From a virus, in the IMG/VR virus record IMGVR_UViG_3300038441_001856, positions 1-21,401 of that record: 21,401 bases of DNA; one strand, given 5' to 3'. This document shows positions 6,626 through 12,045 of this stretch, one piece after another. Made by a program: the position numbers and the translations under genes. Below the pieces are notes generated by a model. That model saw only the letters and a list, made by a program, of their open reading frames with translations. It was not told the origin of the DNA and made no database searches. Position 1 is the stretch's first letter. Each line of letters starts with the position of its first letter.

Positions 6626-7180
6626 ATGGACGCGAACAGCTTCCTCATGGGCGGCGGCGGTGCCCCCACCGCCAAGTTCCCCACCCCCGGGACCATCGTC
6701 GGCGGCCGTATCACCGAGCAGCCCAAGGTCGAGCAGCAGCGGGACATCCAGTCCGGCGAGAAGAAGTTCTGGTCCGACGGCGACCCGATGATGCAGCTCG
6801 TCGTCACCGTCCAGACCGACCAGCGCGACCCGAGCCTGGAGGACGACGACGGACGACGACGCATCTTCGTCAAGGGCCAGATGAAGAACGCCGTCGCCGA
6901 CGCCGTCCGCCAGGCCGGCGCCAAGGGCCTCGAGGTCGGCGGCAACCTGCGCGTCCGCTACACCCACGACGGCACCCCGAAGCAGCGCGGGTTCTCCGCC
7001 CCCAAGCACTACGAGGCGAGGTACGTCCCGGCCGCGCATGTCGAACTGGCCGCCACCGCGCCCGCCCCGGCCCCCGCGCCCGCGACCGCACCGGCCGATG
7101 ACCCGTGGGGCACCGCCGCCGTCCCGGCCGGGGTGAACACCACCACCGGCGAGATCACCGGCGACGAGCCGCCGTTCTAG
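6626..7180 (+). CDS. Single-stranded DNA-binding-like protein (184 aa)
   Basis: ATG 6626 has AAGGAGA at 6610-6616. The first 135 residues look like an OB-fold-type beta-rich domain (PGTIVGGRITEQPKVEQQ, MMQLVVTVQTD, RRRIFVKGQMKNAVADAV, GGNLRVRYTHDG). An Ala/Pro-rich flexible linker follows, then an acidic tail ending GDEPPF. Linker plus acidic tip ending in P-F is the hallmark of SSB proteins (compare the D-D-I-P-F tip of bacterial SSB), which recruits partners. It would coat ssDNA made by the neighbouring nuclease or by the prim-pol/helicase. The family assignment rests on architecture and context; an annealing protein is the alternative. Confidence 0.75.
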   Translation: MDANSFLMGGGGAPTAKFPTPGTIVGGRITEQPKVEQQRDIQSGEKKFWSDGDPMMQLVVTVQTDQRDPSLEDDDGRRRIFVKGQMKNAVADAVRQAGAKGLEVGGNLRVRYTHDGTPKQRGFSAPKHYEARYVPAAHVELAATAPAPAPAPATAPADDPWGTAAVPAGVNTTTGEITGDEPPF

Positions 7181-7198
7181 GCCCCAACCCGCCAGCAC

Positions 7199-7238
7199 CG
7201 CCCGCCGCCGCCCGGCCCCCACACCGCGGCGGCGGGCG
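7199..7238 (+). terminator. GC-rich stem-loop after the SSB-like gene
   Basis: CGCCCGCCGCCGC (7199-7211) pairs perfectly with GCGGCGGCGGGCG (7226-7238), loop 14 bases. It lies 19 bp after the stop and lacks a U-tract. Confidence 0.5.
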
Positions 7239-7262
7239 GGCCAAGCCCCACAGCGCAACAAC

Positions 7263-7287
7263 CCCCGCCCGGGGCCATCGGGCGGGG
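7263..7287 (+). terminator. Second stem-loop before the clamp-like gene
   Basis: CCCCGCCCG (7263-7271) and CGGGCGGGG (7279-7287) pair perfectly around a seven-base loop. With the previous hairpin it makes a tandem barrier 31 bp before the next start. Confidence 0.4.
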
Positions 7288-7317
7288 ATCGCCAACCAGC
7301 ATCCCATGGAGAACAAG

Positions 7318-8148
7318 ATGATCAGCATCACGGCCAGCGAACTTCGCCGCATGCTCCAGCAGGTCACCCCGCACATGTCCGACCCCGAGGATGGCCTGCC
7401 CGTCATCTCCTGCATCCAGTTCCAGGCCCGCGCCGGCTGGCTGTACGCCGCGGCCACCGACCGGTACACCATCGCCGTCTCCCGCCGGGAGGTCGCCACC
7501 ACCGAGAACCTGACCGGCTACATCCCCGGCCACCTGGTGCCCGCCCTCACCGCCTGGCTCGACGGCTTGGCCAACCTCGGCGAGGCGGTCGGCCTGACCC
7601 TGCCCGTGGTGGAGGACCCGGCCGAAGTCGTCCTCACCTCCTCCGGCCTCGGTAACTTCACCGTCCAGTACGACACCGGCGACTTCGAGAAGTTCCCCGA
7701 CTGGCGGAAGATCCTCCACGCCGCCCTCACCTGCGAGCCGGGCCCCATCCCGCTCACCGGCTTCACCGCCAAGTTCCTCGCCCGCTGGCAGCACGCCGCC
7801 GAGAAGCTGATCACCTGGCAGGAAGCCCCCGGCAAGCCGCTGGTTCTCCTCGACGAGCTCGGCTACTTCGCCGGACTGCACATGCCCATCGGCTACCACC
7901 GCGACGGCATGACCCGCCAGAAGGCCGTCGGCAGTTGGATCGCGGCCACTGTCCGCACCGCCACCGTCGACGGCTTCACCTACCACCTCGACCGGTCCTG
8001 GACCGACCGGGACGGCGACGTCTGGACCTACACCGGCGACGACTACCTGGACGGCACCCCGCTCATGGCCATCGAGGGCCTCGAAGAAGACCCGCACCCG
8101 CTCGACTCGGTCATCACCATGTTCGGCCCCCTGACCGACCACGCCTGA
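7318..8148 (+). CDS. DNA polymerase III beta (sliding-clamp)-like protein (276 aa)
   Basis: The start chosen is ATG 7318, because GGAGA lies at 7308-7312. An in-frame ATG at 7306 would swallow that site. The N-terminus follows the clamp pattern: a helix (ITASELRRMLQQVTPHM), then GLPVISCIQFQAR, then LYAAATDRYTIAVSRRE, which parallels the ATDxxxxAV signature of DnaN. Later segments (GNFTVQYDTGDFEKFPDW) match the clamp's second-domain FP-D region. It is about 90 residues shorter than chromosomal DnaN, so it may be a reduced clamp. It would tether a polymerase or nuclease on DNA. No replicative polymerase is seen in the window, so partners may be host proteins. Confidence 0.7.
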   Translation: MISITASELRRMLQQVTPHMSDPEDGLPVISCIQFQARAGWLYAAATDRYTIAVSRREVATTENLTGYIPGHLVPALTAWLDGLANLGEAVGLTLPVVEDPAEVVLTSSGLGNFTVQYDTGDFEKFPDWRKILHAALTCEPGPIPLTGFTAKFLARWQHAAEKLITWQEAPGKPLVLLDELGYFAGLHMPIGYHRDGMTRQKAVGSWIAATVRTATVDGFTYHLDRSWTDRDGDVWTYTGDDYLDGTPLMAIEGLEEDPHPLDSVITMFGPLTDHA

Positions 8149-8949: not shown

Positions 8950-8985
8950 CCGGGGTGTCCACGTCCACGGACGCGGACACCCCGG
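8950..8985. promoter_or_regulatory. Palindromic operator candidate upstream of the primase
   Basis: The 24 bp at 8956-8979 read TGTCCA, CGTCCA, CGGACG, CGGACA: the same four-hexamer plan as the palindrome at 3433-3456. The outer inverted repeat extends to 8950-8960 / 8975-8985 (CCGGGGTGTCC and its complement). It sits 27 bp before TTG 9012. It probably allows the phage repressor to control replication; a stem-loop terminator for the upstream gene is the alternative. Confidence 0.6.
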
Positions 8986-9011
8986 CTCCACCCTCCGAGG
9001 AGCGCACCACC

Positions 9012-11459
9012 TTGAGCACCGCAACGGTCCGCGACACGCCACTCGACGGCGCCCTCTGGCTCACCCGCCACGGCTTCGCCGTCTTCCCCGTGGACCACCC
9101 CGGGCTGCAACAGTGCGCCGGCATCGGGCAGGGCCACGACCCCGCCACCTGCACCCACCGTGGCAAGCACCCCGCCGTTGCCTTCACCCGCACCCACGCC
9201 AGCGACGAGCACCAGGTGCGCGCCCTCTTCGGCGCCCAGCTCCGCAACGTCGGCGTCGCCGTCGGCGCCACCACCGGCCCCGACGGCGAGCAGCTCCTCG
9301 TCGTCGACTCCGACCGGCCCGCCGCCCTCGAAGACGCCGCCACCGCCCTCGGCCAGCAGCACACCCCCACCATGCGGGTCCACACCGCCAAGGGCCACCA
9401 CGACTACTACTGGGCGCCCGCCCACCTGAAGCTCGGCAACGGACTCGGCACGTTGAAGGGCCAGTTCGACGGCGACGTCCGCGCCGGAAACGCCTACGTC
9501 ATCGGCCCCGGCTCCGTCCACGCCACCGGCGTCATCTACGAACTGGACGACCCCGAGCAGCCGCCTGTCGCCGCCCCCGCCTGGCTCCTCACCGCCCTCA
9601 CCACGAAGCCCACGCCCGCCCCGGCACCCGCCGGGCCGGCCGCGCCGATACAGCTGGACACCGACCGGCTCGACGCCTACACCCGCCGCGCCCTGCAGGC
9701 CGAATGCGACGCCATCGCCCGCGCCGCCGACGGCGAGCAGAACAACCAGATCAACACCAGCGCGTTCAGCATCGGCACCCTCGTCGCCGCTGGCGCCCTC
9801 ACCGAGCACGAGGCCCGCCAAGCCCTCGCCGCTGCCGCCCGCGCCGGTGGGCACCCCGACGGCCGCGCCCTCCCCACCATCCAGTCCGGGCTCACCGCCG
9901 GCATGGCCCACCCCCGCACCCCGTGGCCGCCCACCACCCGAGACCGCAACAGCTTCGCCGGACTCCTCCCCCAGCAGCCCGCCACCGCGCCGGCCCCAGC
10001 GCCCCGCGGCTGGACCGCGCCCCTCGAGGAACCCGTCCCCCTGCCCTCACCGATGCCCGCCCGCGAATGGGACGACCTCGGCAACGCCGAACGCGTCATC
10101 GACCGGCACGGCCACACGATCCGCTGGCTCGCCGACATCGAACGCTGGGCCTACTACGAGCACGGCCGCTGGAACCTCAAGGCCGCCAACACCGGCGTCT
10201 GGACCCGCGTCGTCGACACCATCAACCAGCTCGCCGACGAGGCCCCCAACTACGACGACGAGCCCGTCACCGACGACAAGGGCAAGGAGACCGCCAGCCA
10301 GCAACAGCAGTTCCTCGCCTGGGCTCGCAAGCAGCGCATGCGCCCCAAGGTCGCCGCCGCCCGCGACGTCCTCCAGGCCTACCCCGCCGTGCACACCACC
10401 ATGGACGCCTTCGACCAGCCGCAGATGCTCCTCAACGTCGCCAACGGCATCGTCGACCTGCAGACCGGCCAACTGCGCGCCCACGACCGCAGCCTCTACC
10501 TGATGCAGCAGTCCCCCATCCACTACAACCCCACCGCCACCTGCCCCATGTGGGACAAGTTCCTCGCCGGCGTCATGCCCGACCCCGAACGCCGCGCCTA
10601 CCTCGCCCGCGTCATCGGCTACAGCCTCACCGCCGACACCGGCGAACAGGTCATGTTCATCCACCACGGCGAAGGCCAGAACGGCAAAGGCGTCTTCACC
10701 CGCGTCGTCATGGCACTCCTCGGCGAGTACGCCCAAGCCGTCCCCGCCTCCACCCTCATGGCCAAGCACGGCGACGGCGGCATCCCCAACGACATCGCCC
10801 GCATGGTCGGCAAGCGACTCCTGTCCACCAGCGAGACCGGCCGCACCTCCGAAGGCCGCGGCAAGCCCCTCGACGAGGAGCTGGTGAAGCGGCTCACCGG
10901 TGAAGACCCCGTCTCCGCCCGCTTCCTCAACGCCGAGTTCTTCGAGTTCAAGCCCGTCGGGAAGATCCACCTCGCGACCAACCACCTGCCCGACGTGTCC
11001 GGCAGCCACAGCATGGCCCGCCGCCTCCAGTCCATCGGCTGGGACGTCATCGTCCCCCCGGCCAAGCGCATCAAGGGCCTCGCCGAACAGATCCTCGCCC
11101 GCGAAGCCGCAGGCGTCCTCAACTGGGCCATCCGCGGCTGCCTCGACTGGCAGAAGCAGGGCCTGGCCGTCCCCGACTCCGTTACCGCCAAGACCCGCGA
11201 GCACATCGCCCAGTCCAACCCGCTCGCCACCTGGCTGGAGGAAGAGACCGACGCCGTCCCCGACGCGGTCACCGAGAACGGCCAGCTGTACGGCAGCTAC
11301 AAGACGTGGGCCGACCGCGTGGGCGTGAAGCACCCCATGACGATGAAGGCGTTCACGACCCGCCTGCAGGAGCAGGGCTTCGTCCAGGACAAGGACTCCC
11401 GTACCCGCCGGTCCGTCACCCGCGGGCTCGCGCTGGCCATCCTCGGCGGTGCCCGATGA
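9012..11459 (+). CDS. Bifunctional prim-pol / SF3 helicase (phage/plasmid primase, 815 aa)
   Basis: The chosen start is TTG 9012, nine bases after GAGGAG (8997-9002). A GTG at 8955 would translate the palindromic operator. The N-terminal domain (about 1-195) is a prim-pol: VVDSD at about 97-101 and GHHDYYW at 128-134 carry the catalytic acid and aromatic motifs, and AYVIGPGSVHATG is the third motif. A Pro/Ala linker follows, then a D5_N-type region. The SF3 helicase has Walker A GEGQNGKG at 553-560 (Gly instead of Ser/Thr after GK), an acidic motif B region, sensor KIHLATNHLPD from 651, and the Arg-finger region ARRLQSIGWD. A winged-helix-like C-terminus follows. It should open the origin, prime and unwind. 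The giant inverted repeat begins eight bases after its stop. Confidence 0.93.
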   Translation: MSTATVRDTPLDGALWLTRHGFAVFPVDHPGLQQCAGIGQGHDPATCTHRGKHPAVAFTRTHASDEHQVRALFGAQLRNVGVAVGATTGPDGEQLLVVDSDRPAALEDAATALGQQHTPTMRVHTAKGHHDYYWAPAHLKLGNGLGTLKGQFDGDVRAGNAYVIGPGSVHATGVIYELDDPEQPPVAAPAWLLTALTTKPTPAPAPAGPAAPIQLDTDRLDAYTRRALQAECDAIARAADGEQNNQINTSAFSIGTLVAAGALTEHEARQALAAAARAGGHPDGRALPTIQSGLTAGMAHPRTPWPPTTRDRNSFAGLLPQQPATAPAPAPRGWTAPLEEPVPLPSPMPAREWDDLGNAERVIDRHGHTIRWLADIERWAYYEHGRWNLKAANTGVWTRVVDTINQLADEAPNYDDEPVTDDKGKETASQQQQFLAWARKQRMRPKVAAARDVLQAYPAVHTTMDAFDQPQMLLNVANGIVDLQTGQLRAHDRSLYLMQQSPIHYNPTATCPMWDKFLAGVMPDPERRAYLARVIGYSLTADTGEQVMFIHHGEGQNGKGVFTRVVMALLGEYAQAVPASTLMAKHGDGGIPNDIARMVGKRLLSTSETGRTSEGRGKPLDEELVKRLTGEDPVSARFLNAEFFEFKPVGKIHLATNHLPDVSGSHSMARRLQSIGWDVIVPPAKRIKGLAEQILAREAAGVLNWAIRGCLDWQKQGLAVPDSVTAKTREHIAQSNPLATWLEEETDAVPDAVTENGQLYGSYKTWADRVGVKHPMTMKAFTTRLQEQGFVQDKDSRTRRSVTRGLALAILGGAR

Positions 11460-11719
11460 CCGGCCGTGCGAAGGGGTGCGAAGGGGTTGCGAAGGGGTTT
11501 GCGAAGGGGTCTGCGAAGGCTTTGACCTGCAAGTCGAAGGGGTCGAAGGGGTTTTTCTACGCTCGCACATACAAGGGGAAGGAAAACCAGCACGCCTTAT
11601 ATGCAAGGGCAGTGGCGCGAAACCCCTTCGACCCCTTCGAACCGCAGGTCAACCCCTACGCGCACCCCTTCGACAACCCCTTCGCAACCCCTTCGCACCC
11701 CTTCGCGGGCCTCCCATGA
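11456..11719 (+). CDS. Possible 87-aa protein encoded inside the giant inverted repeat
   Basis: ATG 11456 overlaps the primase stop (ATGA), and the frame's own TGA overlaps the next start (ATGA at 11716-11719), the arrangement used by true genes here. The product would be Lys/Gly-rich at first (AKGCEGVAKGFAKGSAK) and Pro/Phe-rich at the end (NPFDPFEPQVNPYAHPFDN), the two halves being translations of complementary repeat arms. That composition suggests the DNA structure, not the protein, is conserved. The open frame may simply keep ribosomes coupled across the repeat. No ribosome site beyond the overlap is seen. Confidence 0.35.
   Translation: MTGRAKGCEGVAKGFAKGSAKALTCKSKGSKGFFYARTYKGKENQHALYARAVARNPFDPFEPQVNPYAHPFDNPFATPSHPFAGLP
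11468..11706. repeat. Giant inverted repeat of iterons; candidate replication origin
   Basis: Arms 11468-11554 and 11620-11706 are each 87 nt and align without gaps, with 77 of 87 positions complementary. The outer 32 nt and inner 21 nt are perfect, and the nonamer TTGACCTGC is kept in the middle. Each arm has seven GCGAAGGGGT/TCGAAGGGGT-type units, starting at 11468, 11478, 11489, 11501, 11513, 11534 and 11543 on the left, mostly one helical turn apart. The 65-nt centre is clearly A/T-richer (CGCCTTATATGCAAG) and could melt. P4-type primase-helicases bind iterons near their own gene, so an origin is likely. An RNA hairpin acting on the transcript is the alternative. Confidence 0.8.
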
Positions 11720-12045
11720 CCCGCCTCCCGGCGCACCTCATCGCCGAGCGTGCCGCCCGCGCCGCCGAGACCGTCCGCACCACCCCGTGCCCCCGCTGCG
11801 GAGCCGACACCCTCACCGCCCGCACACCCGACCGCGTCGCCGCCGTCGACGTCCGCACCGACCCGCACCCCGTCGACCCCGCCGCCATCCCAGCCGGCCG
11901 CATGGCCTGGTGCCTCACCGGCGGCAGCAACCACGCCCCGCAGCGCATCCGCTGGCGCGCCCGCTGGCACGCCCCGCACTGCACCCACCCCGTCCTCATC
12001 GACCACCACTGCCCAACCCGCCCTGTTCAAGGAGTCCTGCTGTGA
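11716..12045 (+). CDS. Small Cys/His-rich (zinc-binding-like) protein (109 aa)
   Basis: ATG 11716 overlaps the TGA of the repeat-embedded frame. A CPRCGADTLTAR zinc-ribbon half lies at about residues 25-36. A possible second half is near the end (HAPHCTHPVLIDHHCP). The middle is a strand-rich stretch (VAAVDVRTDPHPVDPAAIPAG). The protein resembles small DNA-associated proteins in streptomycete phages, but its role is unknown. It has no good Shine-Dalgarno sequence, which makes coupling to the upstream frame more plausible. Confidence 0.7.
   Translation: MTRLPAHLIAERAARAAETVRTTPCPRCGADTLTARTPDRVAAVDVRTDPHPVDPAAIPAGRMAWCLTGGSNHAPQRIRWRARWHAPHCTHPVLIDHHCPTRPVQGVLL

Follow-up and report, generated by a model that had tools for sequence, protein, structure and literature searches.

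Results

A mirrored iteron array lies directly behind a primase-helicase gene

The window analysed here is a whole virus record of 21,401 bases, which is of Streptomyces type, as the closest helicase relatives with a named host are found in Streptomyces contigs. The gene of a protein that joins a Prim-Pol domain to a D5 helicase is followed by a large inverted repeat built of short repeated units (iterons) and then by a small gene (Table 1). The inverted repeat spans 11468-11706 and its two arms of 87 nt (11468-11554 and 11620-11706) pair without gaps at 77 of 87 positions, with no mismatch in the outer block of 32 nt or the inner block of 21 nt, and the stretch of 65 nt between the arms is 55% GC versus about 70% around it. 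An earlier note, made from the sequence alone, had described these arms and blocks, the lower-GC stretch of 65 nt and the location right after the prim-pol/helicase gene, all of which held; its count of seven units per arm held as six exact units, CGAAGGGGT, and one degenerate unit in each.

The motif CGAAGGG occurs six times forward in the left arm and six times reversed in the right arm and never in the wrong orientation, and the degenerate units are CGAAGGC at 11514 on the left and CCCCTACG on the right. Read inward, the left outer units are followed by a middle element, here called M, and then by a pair of units 9 bp apart; the right half mirrors the left, the inner spacing of 9 being followed outward by 12, 11 and 10. 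The mirrored-word score was 15.0 versus a maximum of 5.0 in 40 dinucleotide shuffles, none of which reached the real score (0/40), and the array is the densest region of repeated 7-mers in the 21.4-kb record. The array is intergenic: it begins 9 nt past the stop codon of the primase (11459), and the next conserved start codon (ATG 11716) comes 10 nt after its end. The start context and the N-terminus of this next gene are conserved in L002-L005, L012 and L013. Coding repeats were ruled out, since the spacing does not run in multiples of three and the array is positioned between two conserved coding regions.

Elsewhere in the record, a single CGAAGGGGT followed by GACCT is found at 2775-2783, far upstream of the primase, where chance is a possible explanation, and the protein encoded at 7105-8145 shows weak similarity to the DNA polymerase beta clamp, with a phiSA1p31-type domain at its end.

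Table 1. Coordinates of the genes and array elements in the window
Feature	Position	Strand	Remarks
Prim-Pol / D5 (SF3, P4-family) primase-helicase gene, predicted initiator	8955..11459	+	834 aa
Codons of C-terminal winged helix (residues 741-830), predicted iteron reader	11175..11444	+	Pox_D5 match, model, fold matches
Wing residues 814-820 (DSRTRRS)	11394..11414	+	aligned with mycobacteriophage residues that covary with the iteron word (alignment A3)
Left outer iterons	11468..11522	+	CGAAGGGGT at 11469, 11479, 11490, 11502; degenerate CGAAGGCTT at 11514; spacing 10, 11, 12, 12
Left M element, TTGACCTGCA	11522..11531	+	between outer and inner iterons; TGACCTGC invariant in 10 aligned relatives
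Left inner tandem iteron pair	11535..11552	+	9 bp apart, adjoining core
Core, predicted melting zone	11553..11621		69 bp, 52% GC vs 72% for the record
Right inner tandem iteron pair	11622..11639	-	mirror image of left pair
Right M element	11644..11652	-	TTGACCTGC on - strand
Right outer iterons	11652..11706	-	11664, 11676, 11687, 11697 (spacing 12, 11, 10); degenerate ACCCCTACG at 11652
Next gene	11716..12045	+	109 aa, CPRC motif; downstream limit of origin; ORF frame 11449-12045

The predicted initiator ends in a putative origin-binding domain

The primase-helicase carries the Pfam domains Prim-Pol (residues 33-210), D5_N (378-539, 88 bits) and DUF5906 (571-690) and matches the NCBIfam model TIGR01613, 'phage/plasmid primase, P4 family', at 231 bits (cut-off 108.7). 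The D5/P4-family SF3 helicase that characterises phage and satellite origins recognised by their own initiator, of the SaPI, Sfi21 and P4 kind, is thus present in the window initiator. As the model of the full-length protein was poor (pLDDT 59), only that of the C-terminal domain was used. This domain, which matches Pox_D5 above the cut-off, was modelled by AlphaFold with a pLDDT of 83 and a pTM of 0.74, and the model matched the RFX DNA-binding domain on DNA (Foldseek probability 1.00; Z 9.7-9.9) and the origin-binding domain of phage P4 (1ka8; Z 8.8, rmsd 2.4 over 78). On the strength of the confident model, the two fold matches and the Pox_D5 match, the protein is predicted to end in a winged-helix origin-binding domain of the SaPI, Sfi21 and P4 kind. 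In the model the wing comprises residues 814-819, flanked by strands 810-813 and 820-827.

The array accompanies the helicase C-terminus

Each of the 12 other loci found to share this helicase C-terminus (L002-L007, L012-L014, L211, L212 and L248, L003 and L015 being one prophage; 51-88% identical where aligned) also has the array immediately behind the gene. The inward spacing of 10, 11, 12, 12, 21 and 9 is common to most of these loci, with L007, L212 and L248 less regular. Within a locus the unit word shifts together in most copies and the spacing is kept; the word is CGAAGGGGT in most loci, CGAAGGACT/ACC in L006, mainly CGAAGGGAT in L007 and L212 and mainly CGAAGGCTT in L211. The cores of the relatives hold an imperfect GCATAAGG...CCTTATGC. 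As L016-L020, in which only the N-terminal prim-pol is common (64-70% identical), lack the window-type iterons, the array tracks the C-terminal module. On detailed reading L017 and L018 carry other repeats.

A different mirrored array, GTGGACA/TGTCCAC, resembling DnaA boxes and with an AT-rich core, lies directly behind the prim-pol of L016 (L016:8288-8465), whose C-terminus is a weak DUF3987 match; this array appears to be an origin that arose by convergence.

Scanning viral contigs for the M element together with the unit pattern gave, among the matches covered, single sites besides the known L005. The same scan of 296 Streptomyces genomes gave mostly single sites; three loci were read, among which L211 and L212 proved to be true arrays, and the match in L213 was discarded as a chance occurrence and not an array.

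Wing residues covary with the iteron word

Covariation was analysed in 34 distinct mycobacteriophage primases (L214-L245, L163 and L164), about 30% identical to the window protein, the unit words of which are AGTACAGAT, AGAACAGAT, AGCACAGAT, GGCACAGAT, TCTACAGAT and TGGACAGAT. The best predictors of the word were residues 845-849 and 851 (L216 numbering), which form a short stretch near the C-terminus and rank as the top 6 of 464 variable columns. Among the 30 phages whose words begin with A or G, A at word position 1 went with Asn847 (22/22) and G with His847 (8/8); at word position 3, T went with Ser848 (9/9) and C with Val851 (17/17). Mutual information is biased when sequences are few, and we relied on the contiguity of the top columns, a tree check and six held-out phages. 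When the tree was built with the C-terminal domain left out, the word changed 14 times versus a shuffled-label mean of 16.3, which is nearly random, indicating that kinship does not explain the match between residue and word. The six further phages, chosen solely for record lengths differing from those used, all fitted (6/6).

At the same site in a Marvinvirus-like group Arg goes with GGGGACAT and Asn with AGGGACAT. In the window family, where only 13 loci and few words are available, Arg or His at the aligned residue 816 goes with GGGGT, Lys with GGACT and Thr or Val with GGGAT/GGCTT. In RFX, DNA is known to be read chiefly by the wing, which fits the finding that the covarying residues are those of the wing and not of the helix. 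We infer from this natural covariation in relatives that the primase-helicase itself binds the iterons, an inference made without binding data and with few words in the window's own family.

In three K-type phages (L233, L239 and L266) the inner units are TCTACAGAT and the others of the GGCACAGAT type, as if the word were in the midst of changing.

Wing codons and the proposed origin diverge together

Between the mycobacteriophages L222 and L224 identity is 94-100% in the upstream gene and falls to 66% in the wing codons (the stretch from 100 to 50 bp ahead of the stop); it is 48-90% over the origin and returns to 88-98% farther than about 300 bp past the stop. In the other close pairs with different words identity falls at the wing codons and origin too, and in two same-word pairs no drop was seen at the wing. 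These profiles therefore suggest that reader and sites move as one unit, which is possible because the wing codons adjoin the origin. Although convergent change is not excluded in every case, it is probable from the mycobacteriophage profiles that wing codons and origin are swapped as one small specificity cassette.

Distant phages have the plan with other words

A word-blind scan detected clusters of inverted words behind the primase in mycobacteriophages L148, L154, L164 and L165, in L011, and in Lactobacillus T25 and Latilactobacillus TMW 1.591 P1, with weaker clusters in other phages; direct reading of the sequence added Veliki (L163), Arthrobacter phage Peas, Listeria LP-101 and a Staphylococcus phage. 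These distant relatives among mycobacteriophages, Arthrobacter phages and Firmicutes phages, including Sfi21, have a common plan and different words. The iterons lie directly 3' of the initiator gene and on both sides of a lower-GC core in the window, and in 16 of 16 origins compared the GC content of the core is below that of its own locus. Full mirror symmetry is not a requirement, since in mycobacteriophages some outer units point in the opposite direction and the right arm is the shorter one.

On the helicase tree, loci with the array cluster together (4 changes versus a shuffled mean of 12.1). A large phiBT1-like sister group with D5 primases, which includes Microbacterium phages and most Arthrobacter phages, has no such array. 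The relatives without a mirrored array behind the primase are phiBT1, AbbeyMikolon, TP1604 and those from Microbacterium, most Arthrobacter, Gordonia and Corynebacterium. The primase domain of phiBT1 is Toprim. Reading the region behind the primase of BPP-1 revealed no iteron array; a stem-loop behind the primase has been published for the near-identical BIP-1.

The M element, TTGACCTGC (11522-11531 and 11644-11652 in the window), is found again in the origins of actinophages, where it sits between the outer and inner units and points either way; in most of the mycobacteriophages it is in the opposite orientation (GCAGGTAA).

Discussion

Based on our data we propose that, very probably, the array is a phage replication origin and the prim-pol/D5 helicase encoded just upstream recognises it, although both origin function and binding are inferred and there are no binding, replication or marker-frequency data. 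What the comparison shows is the position, the plan, the concerted words, the covariation and the fold. The reading is supported by the same position in 12 of 12 loci, the concerted words, the distant arrays including an annotated origin in Sfi21, the covariation, the paired divergence and the P4 and RFX fold matches. Against it stand the low identity to the window protein of the primases in which covariation was found, the large D5 sister group without an array and the incomplete symmetry in mycobacteriophages. The earlier note had inferred an origin, which is supported by the relatives and the covariation, and had held that relatives with the same primase but no repeat would refute it; this check came out in favour of the origin. 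Its view that the mirror shape was unfamiliar is corrected, since inverted iterons around a low-GC core occur in other phages and the shape is thus not unique, and the phiBT1-like group has to be added as a correction.

The general kind of origin is already known from SaPI, P4 and Sfi21. Among the closest known systems is Streptococcus thermophilus phage Sfi21, in which the region behind the P4-family primase is annotated as 'origin of replication, 302 bp non-coding region, phage inhibitory sequence' and, as in the window and in the same place, outer repeats, a middle element, an inner tandem pair and an AT-rich core are followed by an inverted inner pair, a middle element and outer repeats. 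Unlike the window, Sfi21 has GTTACT-type words, a Firmicutes host, a far more AT-rich core and less regular outer arms, and no prim-pol domain was detected in the same protein. The Sfi21 protein is of the P4 family with a Pox_D5 C-terminus, but BLAST gave no direct link between the two helicases and the link rests on the shared family model. The Rep proteins of SaPIs, including SaPI5, are D5/P4-family helicases whose C-terminal domain recognises iterons directly downstream of the gene, apparently as two hexamers (PMC7581432), and the window has the same kind of helicase with iterons in the same place; in the SaPI comparison the A2 profile matched PDB entry 7ola, 'DNA primase'. P4 alpha, which binds iterons, is likewise a P4-family helicase with the C-terminal origin-binding fold, but it has a Toprim primase (PMC4234260), whereas the window protein has a Prim-Pol (AEP) domain and not Toprim. 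P4 is also known to need the distant crr element; no second array was seen in the 21.4-kb record, which may be partial.

With its prim-pol, SF3 helicase and winged helix and its array 3' of the gene, the window meets the layout of pRN1, where ORF904 has these domains and the origin, directly 3' of the gene, has inverted symmetry (PMC4234260). In pRN1, said to lack iterons, structure is conserved over sequence, whereas in the window family the units are conserved and the spacers do not pair. The PLE satellites of Vibrio cholerae offer a parallel for the cassette, as the DNA-binding domain of RepA and the origin covary and swap as a module and replication occurs only with the cognate pair (PMC8263062); reader and origin appear to be exchanged as a unit in the window's relatives too, although the PLE initiator is unrelated (RepA_N) and the relevant sections of that paper report no residue-to-base code.

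A hairpin origin as proposed for pRN1, a long stem-loop recognised by shape and not by sequence, is suggested by the long inverted repeat in the same position 3' of a prim-pol/SF3/winged-helix protein and by the finding that a 100-bp stem-loop is needed for pRN1 replication (PMC4234260). We regard it as highly improbable. In ten aligned relatives cross-arm pairing was found in 91% of cells in the unit cores, 88% in the M elements and only 67% at other positions (spacers), so the family does not conserve pairing in place of sequence as pRN1 does, and selection for a hairpin was not supported; the unit cores show almost no compensating change, mismatches persist at several spacer sites, and where other positions do differ in both arms it is mostly in the unit tails, whose copies all change in concert. 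Distant relatives keep the inverted unit orientation without arm-long pairing, L148 for example having no more than three exact units in its right arm, and there is the covariation of the word with residues of the protein. This pattern fits protein sites in mirror orientation, and it is very likely the units, and not the pairing of the arms, that are conserved, as in an iteron array rather than a hairpin.

The array could alternatively be a regulatory operator, or a structure at the end of the primase transcript, to which the primase or some other protein binds to control expression and which has no origin function, as it lies between genes on one strand and the arm pairing would allow a transcript to form a strong stem. 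This too is hard to credit, since the size and mirror plan of the array go beyond those of a usual operator, the Sfi21 record annotates its origin at this very place and covariation points to the D5 helicase C-terminus as the reader; an operator role could nevertheless hold in addition to that of origin, as initiators may also regulate themselves. A partition (centromere-like) or packaging site can be practically dismissed. The phage ends are unknown in the 21.4-kb record and iterons are also known from plasmid centromeres, but domain and family searches of the record recognised no partition gene beside the array and the identity of the array follows the replication helicase C-terminus.

Returning to the origin reading, we propose that the C-terminal winged helix of each subunit would read one CGAAGGGGT unit, largely via its wing, as inferred for the window from the covariation in relatives. 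With mirror-oriented units on either side of the 69-bp low-GC core, two helicase rings would be loaded facing each other head to head; the rings would melt the core and begin bidirectional synthesis from primers made by the fused prim-pol. Specific binding in this phage, loading of the two rings, melting, the bidirectional start and priming are all inferred from P4, SaPI and SF3 helicases (PMC7581432, PMC4234260).

The mirror plan and its grammar, the wing-to-word code and the cassette exchange were not found described in the open-access literature searched, subscription papers being largely outside the search. A bolder reading, which we can neither favour nor dismiss, is that phages that have D5-type initiators share a general, modular kind of origin with a fixed positional grammar (inner tandem pairs facing the melting core, phased outer units and the middle element), in which the word is set by a wing code of nearly one residue to one base and a wing-and-origin cassette of roughly 400 bp is rapidly exchanged and diversified, so that origins would be predictable from sequence across phages of Actinobacteria and Firmicutes. 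If this is true, the rapid exchange could plausibly serve escape from replication parasites or rival phages. A single recombination event can exchange reader and sites together, which is a suggested reason for the origin lying immediately behind the initiator gene. The covariation provides a natural data set in which wing residues of the protein predict the letters of the origin DNA, making an initiator recognition code directly testable.

The comparison places a probable replication origin in a broad set of actinophages, including the heavily studied mycobacteriophages of the cluster K type, and some cluster-K-type annotations put a hypothetical gene over it. Annotated hypothetical proteins overlap the arrays in TiniBug (70; L262:3819-4154), Veliki (71; L163:4365-4721), Syra333 (73; L267:3792-4130) and Arthrobacter phage Peas (61; L166:4368-4709), and these four are probably not genes.
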